A program made the position numbers and the translations under genes. The notes below the pieces were generated by a model. That model saw only the letters and a list, made by a program, of their open reading frames with translations. It was not told the DNA's origin and did no database searches. From NCBI GenBank assembly GCA_026390245.1, contig JAPLGI010000121.1, positions 1-12,414 on the forward strand: a stretch of 12,414 nt of DNA, in the 5' to 3' direction. Positions 627-8,289 of this stretch are shown here, piece after piece (within the stretch, counting starts at the first letter, position 1; each line of letters starts with the position of its first letter). Source of the DNA: Caldisericota bacterium. Lineage in GTDB: Bacteria; Caldisericota; Caldisericia; Cryosericales; Cryosericaceae.

Positions 627-2060
627 TCAGCAATCGTAGTAGAGCTCGAACTCCTTGGGATGAGGCAGGCGGCGGAGGACTTCTGCCTCGTTCTTCTCCT
701 TGTAGGAGCAGAACACTTCAACGAATGTGGCAGGAAATACGCCGTCGCGCGTGAGAAAGTCATTACCACGCCTCAGAGCCGTAAACGCTTCAGAAAGTGA
801 GGTCGGAAGCACCGGGATCCTCCGGACGACCTTCTCCGGCAGTTTCTCGATGTTTCCAGAGTATGGGCCGAGATGAAGCGCCGTCGGATCAGTCTGCTTC
901 TCGATGCCGTCCATTCCGGCAAGAAGCATTGCGCTGATGGCAAGGTATACATTGGTCGTGGCATCCGGTGGGCGGAACTCGATACGCTTCTCAGCTGCCG
1001 TATCCGCGTAGATGGGGATGCGAACCGCCGCCGTGCGGTTGCCCAGCGAGAAGAAGGCTCGGATGGGAGCCTCGAATCCGGGGATGAGCCTCTTGTAGCT
1101 GATCGTGGACGGGTTTGTGATGCCGAGGAGGGCTGACGCGTTACTGAGAATGCCGCCGATGTAGTGTACGGCAAGCGGCGAGAGATCGTAGGGTTCGCCA
1201 CCCTTCTCGTAGAAAGTGGATTGTCCTTTTCTGGTGAGGTACTGGTGGAAGTGCATTCCTGTTCCGGCTTGCCCTGCGATCGGTTTGGGCATGAAGGTCG
1301 CCGTCATGCCCATCTGGCGGGCGAGGTTCTTGGCAAAGTACTTGATCTTCTGTGATGCGTCGCCCATGACGCGCAACGTTCCCGGCATGACCTCGAGCTC
1401 GATCTGACCAGCTTCCCCGGCCTCATGGTGGTGATAGCGGACGGTGACGCCGGCATTCTCGAGCATCTGAACGAGCGTGCTTCGATAGTCGAAGAGGCGG
1501 TCGAGCGGCTGTTCCGTGTGGTACCCCTGACCACGGCGGATGGCATAACCCTGTAGCTGTGAGTTGTCGAGTGATACCGCGCTGCCTGTTTCTGCACTCT
1601 CGATCGAGAAGAAGCTGGTCGTCTCAGAGGACTTGAAATCGACATTCTGGAAGACATAGAACTCAAACTCGGGGGCAAACCAGGCCGTATCGGCATACCC
1701 CTTGGACTTGAGCAAGGCCTCCGCTTGTTCTGCGATGAAGCGGGGGTCAAAAGGAAAGCGTCGATGGGTGTGGGGCTCAAGGATGTCACAGAAGACAGCG
1801 GCAGTAGGGACTTTGGCAAACGGGTCGATGAATGCTGTCGACAGGTCCAAGCGCAGGAGCATGTCGCTGCGCTCCACAGAGGCGAATCCGGGAATGCTGG
1901 AACCATCGAATGCCACTCCCTGCGCCAGGAAAGCATCGTCGACACGCGAGAGGGGAACAGTCACATGATGGAGACCACCGAAGAGGTCGGTGAATTTCAG
2001 GTCGACCTGAGCGATCTCGCGTTCTCTCGCGTAGTTCAGAAACTGCTGAAGCGTTTTCAT
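627..2060 (-). CDS. glnA: glutamine synthetase, type I
   Basis: This 477-residue enzyme makes glutamine from glutamate, ammonia and ATP and is expected to be a cytoplasmic dodecamer. Class I signatures occur in order: FDGSSIPGF (51-59), the metal ligands in PEFEF (Glu131, Glu133), HHEAGEAGQIE (Glu213, Glu221), GTGMHFH (His270), RLIPGFEAP (the flap, Glu330), AVRIP (Arg347), RIEFRPPDATTN (Arg359 and following) and the C-terminal PHPKEFELYY. The length matches the usual 440-475 or slightly more. At the position of the adenylylated tyrosine in enterobacterial GlnA (NLYDLP) this protein reads NIEKLP, with Glu405 in place of Tyr, so AMP-type control is unlikely. The start has a strong GGGAGGTAAGG site. 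The gene lies 50 bp after the deaminase and 9 bp before the sulfur carrier, all on one strand, and so probably shares the deaminase promoter. An ammonia-releasing enzyme followed by an ammonia-fixing one makes metabolic sense. Confidence 0.96.
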   Translation of the reverse strand: MKTLQQFLNYAREREIAQVDLKFTDLFGGLHHVTVPLSRVDDAFLAQGVAFDGSSIPGFASVERSDMLLRLDLSTAFIDPFAKVPTAAVFCDILEPHTHRRFPFDPRFIAEQAEALLKSKGYADTAWFAPEFEFYVFQNVDFKSSETTSFFSIESAETGSAVSLDNSQLQGYAIRRGQGYHTEQPLDRLFDYRSTLVQMLENAGVTVRYHHHEAGEAGQIELEVMPGTLRVMGDASQKIKYFAKNLARQMGMTATFMPKPIAGQAGTGMHFHQYLTRKGQSTFYEKGGEPYDLSPLAVHYIGGILSNASALLGITNPSTISYKRLIPGFEAPIRAFFSLGNRTAAVRIPIYADTAAEKRIEFRPPDATTNVYLAISAMLLAGMDGIEKQTDPTALHLGPYSGNIEKLPEKVVRRIPVLPTSLSEAFTALRRGNDFLTRDGVFPATFVEVFCSYKEKNEAEVLRRLPHPKEFELYYDC

Positions 2061-3609: not shown

Positions 3610-4002
3610 ATGAAGCACATCGACGTAAAGCCTGAAAAGTGTACGGGGTGCCGGTTGTGCCAGCTGACGTGCTCGGCTCAGAACTTCAGGCTCAACACAC
3701 ACAAATCTGCTCGCATAGGGATCGTGCCCCGTTTTCCGGAGGGGTACTTCGAGGTTCATCTCTGCAATCAGTGTGGTGTCTGCCTGCCTACATGTCCGGT
3801 GGGAGCGATTTCTGTCGATGCAGCAGGGGCGTATGTCATCGATGATTCCATGTGCATCGATTGCGGAGCATGCGTCGACAGCTGCCCTCAGCAGGCGATC
3901 TTCAGGTCGCCCGCGAGTCTGCATCCCTACATGTGCAATCTGTGTGGGGCTTGTGTGCCGAACTGCACGTCACAGGCTCTGACCTGGGAGGAAGACCAAT
4001 GA
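3610..4002 (+). CDS. ferredoxin-like protein with four [4Fe-4S] sites, AOR electron-transfer subunit
   Basis: This 130-residue protein contains sixteen cysteines in four CxxCxxCxxxC groups: 11/14/17/21, 52/55/58/62, 82/85/88/92 and 109/112/115/119. All four groups are intact, enough for four [4Fe-4S] clusters. There is no signal peptide, so it is cytoplasmic. The start at 3610 is chosen because AGGAGG lies at 3600-3605 and the first cluster motif follows directly; an in-frame ATG at 3589 lacks such a site. The stop overlaps the oxidoreductase start as ATGA (3999-4002), which indicates translational coupling. Small polyferredoxin subunits of this kind accompany several bacterial tungsten aldehyde oxidoreductases, such as the AorA subunit of the Aromatoleum enzyme, and carry electrons away from the tungsten site. 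No FAD subunit (AorC-like) follows, so the final acceptor is probably ferredoxin or another soluble protein. Confidence 0.92.
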   Translation: MKHIDVKPEKCTGCRLCQLTCSAQNFRLNTHKSARIGIVPRFPEGYFEVHLCNQCGVCLPTCPVGAISVDAAGAYVIDDSMCIDCGACVDSCPQQAIFRSPASLHPYMCNLCGACVPNCTSQALTWEEDQ

Positions 4003-5849
4003 TCAACGGCTACGGTGGGTCCATTCTTCGTGTTGATCTGAGCACCAGGCTGGTCAAGCGAGAGCCTGTGACGCCTGAGTTGGCTCATGACTGGCTGGGG
4101 GGTCGTGCATGGATCGCGAAATACATGTACGACGAGCTTCCTGCGGGCGTGGATCCGCTCAGCGCCGCAAACAAGGTGTTTGTGGCGACCGGACCTCTCT
4201 CGGGCACACTGTGGCCTTCCAGTGCCAAGATCGTCTGGGGTACCAAGTCCCCGCTGACGGGTGGCTACATCGACAGCAACATGGGCGGCCTGATCATGGC
4301 GGAGCTCAAGTACGCCGGCTTGGACATGATCATCCTTGAGGGCGCTTCCGAGACCCCGGTCTATCTCTGTATCGACGACGAAAAGGTCGAGATACGCGAC
4401 GCCTCAGGCTATTGGGGCAAGGGTTCGGTCGACACTGAATACGCCATGAAGCGCGATCTTGGAGAAGACTTTCAGATTGCCACCATTGGTCCTGCGGGTG
4501 AGAATCTTGTGAAGTTCGCATGCATTACACACGACGTGGGACGTCAGGCAGGCCGAGGGGGAACCGCGGCGGTGCTGGGTTCAAAGAAGCTCAAGGCGAT
4601 CGCGGTGCGCGGAACGAAGCCAATTCCCGTCGCCGATATCGGGGGCCTCCAGAAGCACACGACCTCGATCATCGACGCCATCAGGAAGAAGGCGTTCTTC
4701 CCGACTTTTTCCAAGTATGGCACCACGGATGTCACGGACTGGTGTGACAGCGTCGGAGTGATCCCCGTCAACAATTTCCAGCATGCGCAGTACCCCAAGA
4801 AGGACCGTATCAACGGCAAGTACATGCGGGAGCAGATGTATGTGCGGGACAAGGGCTGCTACGCTTGTCCTCTGGGTTGTTCCACGTATACGTATTCGAA
4901 GAAATACGATGTCTACGTCGAAGGGCCGGAATACGAGACCATTGGCCTGATGGGCTCCAATCTTGGCATGGACAGTATCGAGGAAATTGCGGTCCTGAAC
5001 GCCGATGTTGACAATCTGGGCATGGACTCCATCTCTTCTGGATCAGCAGTGGCTTTCGCGATGGAGCTGTACCAGCGAGGGATTCTGACGCGAGAGGATC
5101 TTGGCGGACTGGAGATGACCTGGGGCAACGTGCAGGCGGCACGTGCATTTCTGAAGCTCATCGCGGCTCGAGAGGGGATCGGTGCGACATTCGCGGAAGG
5201 AGCTCTTGCCGCAGCACGCATGATCGGCAAGGACACCGAGAAATATGTCGTGCAGGTGAAGGGTCTGGACTACTCTGCCTACGATACCCATGCTGCGCCG
5301 GCCATGATGCTTGCATACATGACTTCAGACATCGGGGCCCAGCACACGCGCGCGTGGGCCATCGTGCAGGACATCACGATGGGACGCAGCTCCACCGAAG
5401 GGAAGGGACAGGTGGTGTATGACTTGCAGCACCTGCGTCCTCTCATGGAAGTGCTGGGTGTCTGTCGCTTCCCATGGCTTGAGGTGAAGGTCGACTGGGA
5501 GGACTACGTCAAGGCACTGAACCTGGTGACCGGGCAACACTACACAACAGAGGAACTGTTCGCCTTCAGTGAGAAAGTGTGGAATCTTACCCGGGCCTTC
5601 TGGACCCGCGAGGTTGAGGGATTTGGCCGAGCATATGACCAGCCGCCGGCCAAAATGTACGTGGAGATGCCTGATGGGCCGACGAAGGGGGCCAAGGTGA
5701 CCCAGGATATGGTAGACCAGCTTCTGGACGGCTACTACAAGGCGTACCACTGGGACCAGAATGGACTGCCAACCGCTCAGAGGCTGCGTGAGGTCGGGCT
5801 GGGGTATGTTGCAGACGACTTGATACAACGGGGACGGATCGCGGACTGA
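3999..5849 (+). CDS. tungsten-dependent aldehyde ferredoxin oxidoreductase
   Basis: This 616-residue enzyme has the usual length of the AOR family, which oxidises aldehydes to carboxylic acids, or reduces acids in reverse, with ferredoxin as electron partner. The N-terminal pterin-binding part begins YGGSILRVDLS and includes LGGRAWIAKY. The cluster ligands are in CYACPLGC (Cys287, Cys290, Cys294) and GVCRFPW (Cys489), almost the same numbers as in the Pyrococcus enzyme (288/291/295/494). The active-site residues by the same comparison are Glu313 in GPEYET and His449 in GAQHTRAW. The reading frame is open for 49 codons further upstream, but that part lies over the ferredoxin in another frame, so the ATG overlapping the ferredoxin stop is the true start. 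The cofactor requires pterin sulfuration, for which the sulfur carrier at 393-617 is a candidate. The substrate cannot be read from sequence; a close relative acting on other substrates is possible. Confidence 0.94.
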   Translation: MINGYGGSILRVDLSTRLVKREPVTPELAHDWLGGRAWIAKYMYDELPAGVDPLSAANKVFVATGPLSGTLWPSSAKIVWGTKSPLTGGYIDSNMGGLIMAELKYAGLDMIILEGASETPVYLCIDDEKVEIRDASGYWGKGSVDTEYAMKRDLGEDFQIATIGPAGENLVKFACITHDVGRQAGRGGTAAVLGSKKLKAIAVRGTKPIPVADIGGLQKHTTSIIDAIRKKAFFPTFSKYGTTDVTDWCDSVGVIPVNNFQHAQYPKKDRINGKYMREQMYVRDKGCYACPLGCSTYTYSKKYDVYVEGPEYETIGLMGSNLGMDSIEEIAVLNADVDNLGMDSISSGSAVAFAMELYQRGILTREDLGGLEMTWGNVQAARAFLKLIAAREGIGATFAEGALAAARMIGKDTEKYVVQVKGLDYSAYDTHAAPAMMLAYMTSDIGAQHTRAWAIVQDITMGRSSTEGKGQVVYDLQHLRPLMEVLGVCRFPWLEVKVDWEDYVKALNLVTGQHYTTEELFAFSEKVWNLTRAFWTREVEGFGRAYDQPPAKMYVEMPDGPTKGAKVTQDMVDQLLDGYYKAYHWDQNGLPTAQRLREVGLGYVADDLIQRGRIAD

Positions 5850-5871: not shown

Positions 5872-5903
5872 AGAGACGCCCAAGCATAAGCCTGGGCGTC
5901 TCT
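5872..5903. terminator. bidirectional terminator-like hairpin between convergent genes
   Basis: AGAGACGCCCA (5872-5882) pairs perfectly with TGGGCGTCTCT (5893-5903), an 11-bp G+C-rich stem with a 10-nt loop. It is centred between the converging ends of the oxidoreductase (5849) and heliorhodopsin (5929) genes. Neither side has a strong T-run, so it may act in both directions with modest efficiency. Confidence 0.7.
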
Positions 5904-5928: not shown

Positions 5929-6732
5929 TTAGTTGCGGGCCACGGCGCCGAAGAAGATCTGCCATGCGAGAGCAGACTTGGCGACCAGCGAGAGCAAGAC
6001 ATAGACGCGCTCGCCGAAGATGTAGTCGCGCCACTTCCCGACTTTCCGATACTGCAGAACCATGTTGATGGCGAAGCAGTTGAAGAACACGAAGATCGTG
6101 CCGAGGATGTAATAGACAAAGGTGGGGATGGTCCCCGTTGCACTGGCGGCAGCGCTGAAGAAGTACAGGCAGATGACGACCCAGGGAACAAGACCAATGA
6201 TCGAACCGAAGATGAATGATGTCCAGTCGGTCCGAGCAGTCGTCTGGTTGTGGAGTTCCATCATCAAGCCGAACAGGTTCATGGCAGCATTCAGAGAGAA
6301 CAGCATGATGGCGCTGGAAAGGTCAAACATGCCGGAGAGCTCAGCGATGATGACGATCATCACGGACGAACTCAGCGCATACTCGTACCACCGTATGTAG
6401 TTGATACCGCGTCGGAGATTTGCTTTGTACCACTCGAACACGCCGGGCAGGATGGTCACGAAGTGCGCTATCGCTGACAGCAGCAAGAATATCGCAATTG
6501 CAGGGCCGAGCCGGAAAGTGCCAAGAGTCGCTGGCGTCGGAGCCGGCATCCCGCCTGGTCCGCCCGCCTTGAGATAGCTCGTCGTGATCGGTACGGTCAG
6601 GCCCTTTCCCCAGCCAAGGATGACTATAGCGATAGCCTGTCCGAGGTGGAGAAGTCCCATGAGACTGTTGTAGATGCGCAATCTGTTGAGGTCATATGAT
6701 GAATGCTGTGTTTCCTGTCTGATTCCTGTCAT
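5929..6732 (-). CDS. heliorhodopsin
   Basis: This 267-residue protein has seven hydrophobic segments (about 21-40, 72-98, 113-133, 139-160, 171-193, 202-226 and 241-263) and the family's marks. RWYEY (114-118) carries the presumed counterion Glu117, and the last helix reads SLVAKSALAWQIF, in which Lys252 would bind retinal as a Schiff base and Ser248 lies one turn before it. His29 and His90 match histidines near the chromophore in HeR-48C12. The counterion-to-lysine distance (135 residues) matches 134 in that protein, from memory. The first extracellular loop (about 41-71) is long, as usual. Heliorhodopsins sit with the N-terminus in the cytoplasm, opposite to other microbial rhodopsins; most do not pump ions and their role is unsettled. 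The start is fixed by GGAGG 6 nt upstream; the frame stays open further but would cross the tRNA gene. It has its own strong promoter. No retinal or carotenoid gene is visible nearby. Confidence 0.95.
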   Translation of the reverse strand: MTGIRQETQHSSYDLNRLRIYNSLMGLLHLGQAIAIVILGWGKGLTVPITTSYLKAGGPGGMPAPTPATLGTFRLGPAIAIFLLLSAIAHFVTILPGVFEWYKANLRRGINYIRWYEYALSSSVMIVIIAELSGMFDLSSAIMLFSLNAAMNLFGLMMELHNQTTARTDWTSFIFGSIIGLVPWVVICLYFFSAAASATGTIPTFVYYILGTIFVFFNCFAINMVLQYRKVGKWRDYIFGERVYVLLSLVAKSALAWQIFFGAVARN

Positions 6733-6754
6733 TGCTTGCCTCCAAAAGTTAGAA

Positions 6755-6773
6755 ATACTAATGATGTGAGTAT
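6755..6773. promoter_or_regulatory. inverted repeat at the heliorhodopsin transcription start
   Basis: ATACT (6755-6759) and AGTAT (6769-6773) form a perfect 5-bp inverted repeat with 9 bp between. It overlaps the -10 box and the expected start of transcription, where a repressor could bind. The repeat is short and may be due to chance. Confidence 0.25.
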
Positions 6774-6797
6774 AGCCGACCATCCAATTGTTGTCAA
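6769..6797 (-). promoter_or_regulatory. strong promoter of the heliorhodopsin gene
   Basis: On the minus strand a consensus TTGACA (6792-6797) is followed after exactly 17 bp by TATACT (6769-6774). Transcription would start near 6762, giving a leader of about 30 nt with the GGAGG site. Eight consecutive G residues on the plus strand (6798-6805) lie directly upstream of the -35 box. The gene therefore does not depend on read-through from the tRNA. Confidence 0.8.
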
Positions 6798-6830: not shown

Positions 6831-6917
6831 TGGTGCCGAAGGAGGGAATTGAACCCACACGGGTGTTACCCCGGCAGATTTTGAGTCTGCTGCGTCTGCC
6901 AGTTCCGCCACTTCGGC
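6831..6917 (-). tRNA. tRNA-Leu (anticodon CAA)
   Basis: Read on the minus strand, an acceptor stem GCCGAAG (5' end at 6917) pairs with CTTCGGC, followed by the discriminator A and an encoded CCA (6831-6833). The anticodon stem GCAGA/TCTGC encloses the loop CTCAAAA, giving anticodon CAA for the leucine codon UUG. A long variable arm (GGGGTAACACCC) and the T-arm GGGTTCAATTC are present, as expected for a class II tRNA. The length is 87 nt including CCA. Confidence 0.97.
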
Positions 6918-6925
6918 ACACGCCT

Positions 6926-6953
6926 ATTATATGTGCGGGCGGAGAGCTGTCAA
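6926..6953 (-). promoter_or_regulatory. consensus promoter of tRNA-Leu
   Basis: On the minus strand TTGACA (6948-6953) and TATAAT (6926-6931) are both perfect consensus hexamers, 16 bp apart. They lie 8 nt upstream of the mature tRNA end, so the 5' leader would be extremely short. Confidence 0.85.
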
Positions 6954-7585: not shown

Positions 7586-7611
7586 GCGCGTCTTATGAAT
7601 GGTGACAAGTG

Positions 7612-8289
7612 ATGAGACATGACATGCAAACAGACAATAAGATGATGAACGACGGCCAGCAGCCTCTTGAGCTGTCTGCTGAGTTGCGCGGCGAGGTTCT
7701 TGCCCTGTTTGCGCCGATGGACCGCTCAGTGGCTGATTCCGTCGCTGCTGCCATCAGCAGTCACCGCTCGCACCGCCGCCTGCTGCAGGGTCTGTGGCTG
7801 GGGTTCTCGCCCGTCATTGCTGTTGCCATTGTAGCTGTGCTGTATGTCGGTGGTGGCGCCTTGCCACGCAGTTCCTCGATGGTCTCATCCAAGGGAGCCT
7901 TCAGGTCCCCCAATCCTGAGATCCGCGCTCAGGACTCCGCAGCCAATGTTCTTGCCGGGTCTGAGAACGTCCCAGCTCTTGCAACCGCATGCCGAATGCC
8001 ATCCTTTCGTATTCTCCTTGACGGTGATGCTGCCCGCAAACAGCTGTTGGCAACGTGGCTGAGAGCCAGGCATCCTGATGTTGCCCTCATGCTCGACGCC
8101 GCTGCCCCGGGGAGCGAGGTCGTGTTGACACTTGAGCCTGATGAGGTCCGGGAATTTGCTGTTCTGATGGCGCTGCATGGATTCATTGGAGAGGCCCCAT
8201 CGGGTCTTCTCATACTTCCACGGTTCTCACCGCAGTCCTGGTCGCGCAGTCTGGGGACTTCATCGTTGTTCATCTGCGTCACTCCATGA
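7612..8289 (+). CDS. single-pass membrane protein, probable anti-sigma factor
   Basis: I do not recognise a named family for this 225-residue protein. It has an N-terminal cytoplasmic part (about 1-56) with a predicted helix (ELSAELRGEVLALF), a basic stretch HRSHRR, one transmembrane helix (about 58-82), a low-complexity Ser/Pro/Ala linker (85-115) and an extracytoplasmic domain of about 110 residues (from ACRMPSFRILLDGDAA to the end). Position right after an ECF sigma gene and this topology are typical of anti-sigma factors. The zinc-finger motif (HxxxCxxC) of many such proteins is absent; the only cysteines lie outside the membrane. The reading frame begins with GTG at 7609 directly followed by ATG at 7612. 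I prefer the ATG because GGTGAC (7601-7606) is then better spaced. The outer domain may sense an envelope signal or contact the DUF4349 protein encoded next. Confidence 0.7.
   Translation: MRHDMQTDNKMMNDGQQPLELSAELRGEVLALFAPMDRSVADSVAAAISSHRSHRRLLQGLWLGFSPVIAVAIVAVLYVGGGALPRSSSMVSSKGAFRSPNPEIRAQDSAANVLAGSENVPALATACRMPSFRILLDGDAARKQLLATWLRARHPDVALMLDAAAPGSEVVLTLEPDEVREFAVLMALHGFIGEAPSGLLILPRFSPQSWSRSLGTSSLFICVTP

Follow-up and report, generated by a model that had tools for sequence, protein, structure and literature searches.

The stretch of DNA analysed here (12,414 nucleotides, hereafter the window) contains a complete heliorhodopsin (HeR) gene, which is under purifying selection in Candidatus Cryosericum (Caldisericota), a genus without the two oxidase families searched, the carotenoid entry enzyme and Blh. 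The evidence leans modestly towards an ordinary functional HeR that senses light with a chromophore acquired from outside. How such carriers obtain retinal is a real question in the field, and Cryosericum makes it testable through strong selection on HeR, losses of the gene at the same site in sister species, and a candidate enzyme of retinoid metabolism with unusual residues.

The heliorhodopsin gene and its locus

The genome that contains the window is 83.6% complete, with 1.28 Mb in 222 contigs, and the nearest named sequences are those of Ca. C. terrychapinii SMC7, Ca. C. hinesii SMC3 and Caldiserica MAGs from Lac Pavin (89–97% identity). The features of the locus are the following.

627..2060, minus strand: glutamine synthetase (GS) gene, 3.9 kb from HeR (context; kept in HeR-less sisters)
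3610..4002, plus strand: 4Fe-4S ferredoxin gene, start codon uncertain
3999..5849, plus strand: aldehyde:ferredoxin oxidoreductase family gene (AFOR, domains AFOR_N and AFOR_C; AOR below), convergent with HeR (context)
5873..5902, no strand assigned: GC-rich hairpin where the HeR and AOR genes converge, read from the sequence
5929..6732, minus strand: HeR gene, 267 amino acids, ATG at 6732–6730, stop codon at 5929 included
6739..6743, minus strand: GGAGG ribosome-binding site of HeR, read from the sequence
6746..6761, minus strand: short dyad TTAG-TATTT-CTAA (plus CTT), with the -10 box on one side and the ribosome site on the other
6769..6797, minus strand: promoter-like site of HeR, TTGACA-17-TATACT, near-consensus sigma-70-type
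6831..6917, minus strand: tRNA-Leu(CAA) gene, immediately upstream of HeR, preceded by a promoter-like site of its own

The plus strand across 5929–6732 is interrupted by stops, and the complete reading frame lies on the minus strand. The protein belongs to the heliorhodopsin (type-3 rhodopsin) family. Residues 18–263 match the Pfam profile PF18761 (E 1.9e-95, 319 bits against a cut-off of 26.7), and the NCBIfam model NF038020 gives 325.6 bits against a cut-off of 100. A sequence search of solved structures (E ≤ 1e-3) matched six distinct sequences, all of them heliorhodopsins, with TaHeR (6is6) as the best match (E 1.1e-70). The family residues are in place, with RWYEY at 114–118 including E117, and with H29 and H90. 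The SxxxK motif that is demanded of a bona fide HeR according to Bulzu et al. 2021 (PMC8612252) is found in helix 7 as S248-L-V-A-K252 (motif LSLVAKSALAWQIF). Across 45 aligned rows of selected relatives, E117, S248 and K252 never vary, and H29 and H90 are each conserved in at least 90% of the rows.

An AlphaFold model of the protein (mean pLDDT 90.4, pTM 0.87) consists of seven long helices, with a hairpin in the A–B loop (46–55/64–74) and a helix in the B–C loop (98–107). When the model was used for a structure search, ten PDB entries were matched at E ≤ 1e-3, all heliorhodopsins, with TM scores of 0.78–0.88. Further rhodopsins start at E 1.8e-3, with 9–15% identity to HeR, and no other seven-helix family matched better. 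By homology, an inverted membrane topology is implied for the protein. The earlier note, made from the sequence alone, had described 5929–6732 as a complete heliorhodopsin without giving the strand, and had named RWYEY with Glu117, His29, His90 and Lys252. Its coordinates and residues are correct, and the profile searches and structural comparison that it proposed agree with its family assignment. A HeR of Ca. Cryosericum is already named in one protein record.

Of 21 genome pairs, 20 give dN/dS values for HeR between 0.041 and 0.131; the exception is the closest pair, with 0.231 at a dS of 0.05. The median (0.061, four genomes) compares with 0.068 for AOR and 0.058 for glutamine synthetase (six genomes). 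HeR is under purifying selection about as strong as that on these two enzymes, and the protein is therefore kept for a function.

A TTGACA box followed by TATACT or TATAAT precedes HeR in all seven HeR-bearing Cryosericum genomes that were aligned (the window and six others), and the site also occurs, with changes, in the HeR-less genome G008. Six of these seven genomes carry the dyad (TTAGTNNTTCTAAC) unchanged, and G007 differs from it by one base. The unchanged pattern was found in 22 of 182 loci, many of which are counted twice, and every occurrence is a copy of the HeR site in Cryosericum, including that of G008. It may represent an operator-like element at the probable start of HeR transcription. 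Downstream, the hairpin at 5873..5902 is perhaps a terminator shared by HeR and AOR; a terminator scan did not flag it. The promoter-like site of the tRNA is a perfect match to the consensus (TTGACA at 6953, TATAAT at 6926).

From its sequence and arrangement, HeR probably forms a monocistronic unit under its own promoter. No operon partner is evident, given the separate promoter-like site of HeR and the presence of the flanking genes beside the site in HeR-less sisters as well. A link to glutamine synthetase of the AbHeR type was considered and rejected, the GS gene being 3.9 kb away, separated by genes on the opposite strand and present in HeR-less sisters. The ATG of AOR at 3999 gives a 4-base overlap with the ferredoxin gene; the AFOR family is clear from Pfam, and the choice between tungsten and molybdenum cannot be read from the sequence. 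On the other side of the locus, a plus-strand reading frame at 7609–8289 (226 amino acids), which follows the sigma factor gene, has no Pfam match and is placed like an anti-sigma factor.

Distribution and losses of HeR in Cryosericum

The comparison covered 61 genomes: that of the window, 14 of the same genus, 34 of the same class, five of the same phylum and seven from outside, so that the genus is represented by 15 and the phylum by 54. Completeness is uneven, and absence from any one genome is therefore weak; statements of absence rest on the whole set. HeR was found in 13 of the 61 genomes: eight belong to the genus (of 15) and five to the rest of the phylum (of 39; in G024 as fragments only).

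The order GS–amidohydrolase–ferredoxin–AOR–HeR–tRNA–sigma is common to the window and to G001, G002, G010 and G013, and parts of it are present in G007 and G012 as far as their contigs reach. The corresponding site in HeR-less members of the genus differs from genome to genome. In G008, the promoter-like site and the start region are left and the reading frame is gone; G011 retains the start region and short decayed pieces that include the last codons; nothing recognisable of HeR is left in G004; and in G003 and G005 the ferredoxin–AOR–HeR block is missing beside the same tRNA. This reading of the locus excludes G006, with only distant sigma matches, and G014, whose contig is short and in which no tRNA was found. 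At the G004 site (L148, between 7863 and 7994) there is a long inverted repeat, almost perfect, whose loop resembles a T-arm (GGTTCGAACC).

A species tree of ten genomes was rooted on G003 and G005, which were chosen for their divergence and whose join is flagged as a meeting of long branches; an earlier tree with gappy rows was unresolved and was not used. G008 is sister to the HeR-bearing Ca. C. hinesii (support 100/100), so its loss of HeR is recent. The different form of the remnants suggests that the loss in G011 was separate. The simplest history is one gain of HeR beside the tRNA, followed by repeated loss.

A HeR tree, computed by a quick method, comprises 79 rows. These exclude L041, which contains a stop codon, as well as L018, L024, L087 and the fragments L011–L015. 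In this tree the five rows from Cryosericum group together (98), apart from the HeRs of G051/G053 and G047. This would fit separate acquisitions by Cryosericum and other Caldisericota, but the deep forks are weak. The nearest outside row to the HeR of the window by path is L003, from G050 of the same phylum, and a shared origin with it is possible. An old gain by transfer is likely.

Oxygen, carotenoids and the source of retinal

Cytochrome bd is absent from all 54 phylum genomes (present in 3 of 7 outside). COX1 was found in none of the 15 genus genomes, in 1 of the 54 in the phylum (G040, a weak match to profile positions 2–145 only) and in 2 of the 7 outside. Phytoene synthase is likewise absent from the phylum (0/54; 4 of 7 outside genomes are positive). 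Blh (PF15461) was found in none of the 61 genomes, 54 of them of the phylum, and no control inside that set is positive; the same search over 121 genomes of another phylum matched four. The anaerobic lifestyle that the earlier note had deduced from a single AOR gene is thus supported on a wider basis, by the genome search for respiration, carotenoid and retinal genes that it had proposed. The cultured relative Caldisericum exile is termed anaerobic, and Caldiserica are also described from upper lake layers, with a capacity against oxidative stress (PMC6770359).

The envelope is apparently monoderm, as judged from one marker: Omp85 was found in none of the 15 genus genomes, in 1 of the 54 of the phylum and in 7 of 7 outgroups. 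This agrees with the published rule, based on 27 markers, that HeR hosts are monoderm (PMC8612252), and by this marker Cryosericum shows no sign of being a diderm exception. The lone Omp85 match in the Caldisericota sample (L118, G042:C77) is either possibly a contaminant contig or a real exception. Thermotogota have a sheathed envelope, and Thermotoga maritima was positive for Omp85 among the controls; HeR occurs in this phylum at L050 (Kosmotogaceae) and L054 (Thermotogales), so that these lineages could serve to probe the monoderm-only rule.

In public genomes, 127 places that encode relatives of this HeR were detected by a scan, of which 80 were kept; these span Anaerolineae, Dehalococcoidia, Thermoplasmata, Lokiarchaeia, Theionarchaea, Thermotogales, Patescibacteria and others. 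Fifty HeR-bearing genomes, corresponding to 50 of the 80, were searched; their completeness is not known, three are Cryosericum, and five (these three, G051 and G053) also belong to the 61-genome set. Blh did not exceed the cut-off in any of the 50, the single weak match below it (G100) having an internal stop. An RPE65-family gene was found in three, which are exactly the three Cryosericum, and the remaining 47 have neither. Among the relatives closest in sequence, as far as genomes of such completeness tell, HeR without known kinds of retinal-forming enzyme is the usual case. Similar cases have been described: the TaHeR host is said to have no means of producing retinal (PMC9385722), HeR occurs in Bathyarchaeota genomes without carotene dioxygenase (PMC7110647), and a figure legend names HeR fusions in strictly anaerobic Firmicutes (PMC8612252).

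Consequently, the view that a retinal sensor is unexpected in such a host is not supported, the matter being already recognised in the field; what is added here are the losses in sister species and a genus-specific enzyme of the RPE65/carotenoid-oxygenase family (CCO-like below). From the overall interpretation in the earlier note, the heliorhodopsin and the anaerobic-type host without phytoene synthase or Blh are supported and the surprise is not; moreover, the genome does hold this CCO-like gene, given which a route to retinal might exist in the host.

L170:3498-4895 (= G000:C46), minus strand: CCO-like gene, 466 amino acids, PF03055, on another contig of the same genome

The CCO-like protein matches PF03055 with 290 bits against a cut-off of 27. 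Of the 15 Cryosericum genomes, 14 carry its gene (in G005 it is cut short by the end of a contig), as do none of the 39 other Caldisericota and 1 of 7 outgroups; its restriction to Cryosericum within the phylum sample is new here. In G001 and G002 it lies on one contig with HeR, about 36 and 43 kb away. Within the genus there is no association between the two: the gene is found in 7 of 8 HeR-bearing genomes (not in G007) and in 7 of 7 HeR-less ones. Because it is kept in all seven of the latter, it is not dedicated to HeR. Purifying selection on it (median dN/dS 0.17 over nine genomes) is weaker than on HeR.

The structural model of the CCO-like protein is closest to the Nitrosotalea CCD (6vcf; E 8e-43, TM 0.91, 30% identity), followed by NinaB and RPE65, and 6vcf is also the best match by sequence (E 2.8e-62). 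The four Fe-binding histidines are present; in an alignment of 36 rows including the query, chosen from 113 matches, H164, H213 and H280 are found in all rows and H456 in 35. An outside copy (G055) has Asn at H280 in a pairwise check, perhaps through an alignment slip. Three second-sphere carboxylates are described for carotenoid cleavage oxygenases (PMC12051055). Glu150 is named in the title of a PDB match to the model. The columns that we provisionally take to be those of the second sphere were picked through the ACO numbering E150/E370/E426, and the query has D132, E347 and A400 there. The E347 column is E or D in 36 of 36 rows. In both other columns, all 21 outside rows have Glu; in the own clade (15 rows), the D132 column is D in nine, Y in two, G in two and otherwise N or A, and the A400 column is A in 14 and P in one. 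Ala occupies position 400 in the query and in each of the nine further Cryosericum sequences that were checked. The most divergent copy, that of G003, has Ala at E347 and Gly at D132 in a pairwise check.

In the reading that we prefer, HeR would be transcribed alone from its sigma-70-type promoter and made as a light-sensing membrane protein. Because the host shows no carotenoid synthesis, the chromophore would be taken up ready-made: all-trans-retinal from other organisms would enter the opsin from the membrane and form a Schiff base with Lys252, Glu117 serving as the counter-ion, and HeR would then signal light to a downstream target. In favour of an outside chromophore are the 47 of 50 HeR carriers in a similar position, and the origin of the closest solved relative, TaHeR, in a host reported to lack retinal production; against it stands the CCO-like gene, which might make retinal. 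Light sensing is harder to reconcile with the lack of an evident partner gene, the flanking genes being found beside HeR-less sites too. Photolyase is an unlikely partner in most species, as it exceeds the cut-off in just 1 of 15 genus genomes (G010), with a weak partial match below it in G002. Four named HeR-bearing relatives are Lac Pavin MAGs whose labels (WC70, SED) suggest deep water and sediment, with scarce light.

The source of the chromophore is where the main alternative departs from this. Oxygen-dependent members of the RPE65/carotenoid-oxygenase family make retinal, and it is possible, if on the whole unlikely, that the host produces its own from scavenged apocarotenoids through the CCO-like enzyme during brief exposure to oxygen, for use by HeR. 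The presence of the gene in 14 of 15 Cryosericum and no other Caldisericota, its place on the HeR contig in two genomes, the retained iron histidines, the likeness of the model to 6vcf and the purifying selection all fit this proposal; if the enzyme is normal, the host meets oxygen at times. However, a canonical member of the family requires O2, the gene does not track HeR in either direction, the two columns that are Glu in every outside row are changed in the Cryosericum clade, and the NCBIfam scores fall far under the cut-offs for apocarotenoid or stilbene cleavage (scores of 117 against 675 and 91 against 800). It is a long shot that the protein, with the changed surroundings of its iron site, is instead an O2-independent retinoid enzyme or carrier (an RPE65-like hydrolase or isomerase, or a retinoid binder) that processes scavenged retinyl esters or apocarotenoids and feeds HeR; if true, this would be a retinal supply line that works in anoxia.

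The lack of an assured chromophore source and the probably dim habitats would also suit a HeR that acts without retinal (as an apo-protein or bound to a different ligand), such as a structural or regulatory membrane protein, and HeRs have been reported to act through protein contacts with glutamine synthetase (PMC9529153) and an ABC transporter (PMC11109279). This is improbable in view of the invariant K252, E117 and S248, the SxxxK motif and the strong selection. That the HeR contig is a stray piece from a binning error, rather than stable host DNA, is scarcely credible. Seven of the 15 genomes in the genus gave no HeR, the ferredoxin–AOR–HeR block is missing from G003 and G005, and the Cryosericum HeRs group apart from most others of the phylum; against this, four further genomes, two of them named as Ca. 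Cryosericum species, share the gene order, and G011 and G008 hold decayed or deleted copies at the same site. Conserved synteny and these remnants exclude contamination in practice. We retain the functional HeR with scavenged retinal as the preferred reading. Either outcome would be informative, whether scavenged retinal or a retinoid chemistry that is new for such hosts, and the 47 of 50 carriers with neither Blh over the cut-off nor an RPE65-family gene are concerned.

Comparison with known systems

The CCO-like protein shares its fold and four Fe histidines with NdCCD of Nitrosotalea devanaterra (6vcf), and differs from it at the two Glu positions taken for second-sphere carboxylates, which are changed in the Cryosericum clade. 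As in the system of AbHeR, a GS gene is found in the Cryosericum window; that of AbHeR is adjacent and in one operon (PMC9529153), whereas the Cryosericum gene lies apart, with other-strand genes between. The Bathyarchaeota HeRs resemble the present case in that their genomes lack carotene dioxygenase and exogenous retinal or analogs have been considered; in contrast, crtY and retinol dehydrogenases are reported in some of those genomes (PMC7110647).

Among the solved structures, HeR-48C12 (PDB 6su3, 6su4, 6uh3), with which the earlier note had proposed a comparison, shares 38–40% identity with HeR at TM scores of 0.78–0.85, and comes from an actinobacterial fosmid (PMC9529153). TaHeR from Thermoplasmatales archaeon SG8-52-1 (PDB 6is6, 7clj, 7u55) is closer, with 46–47% identity and TM scores of 0.87–0.88. 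Its host is archaeal, unlike Cryosericum, and the two are alike in the apparent lack of retinal production by the carrier; for TaHeR, a fenestration has been proposed as the entry for exogenous retinal (PMC9385722).
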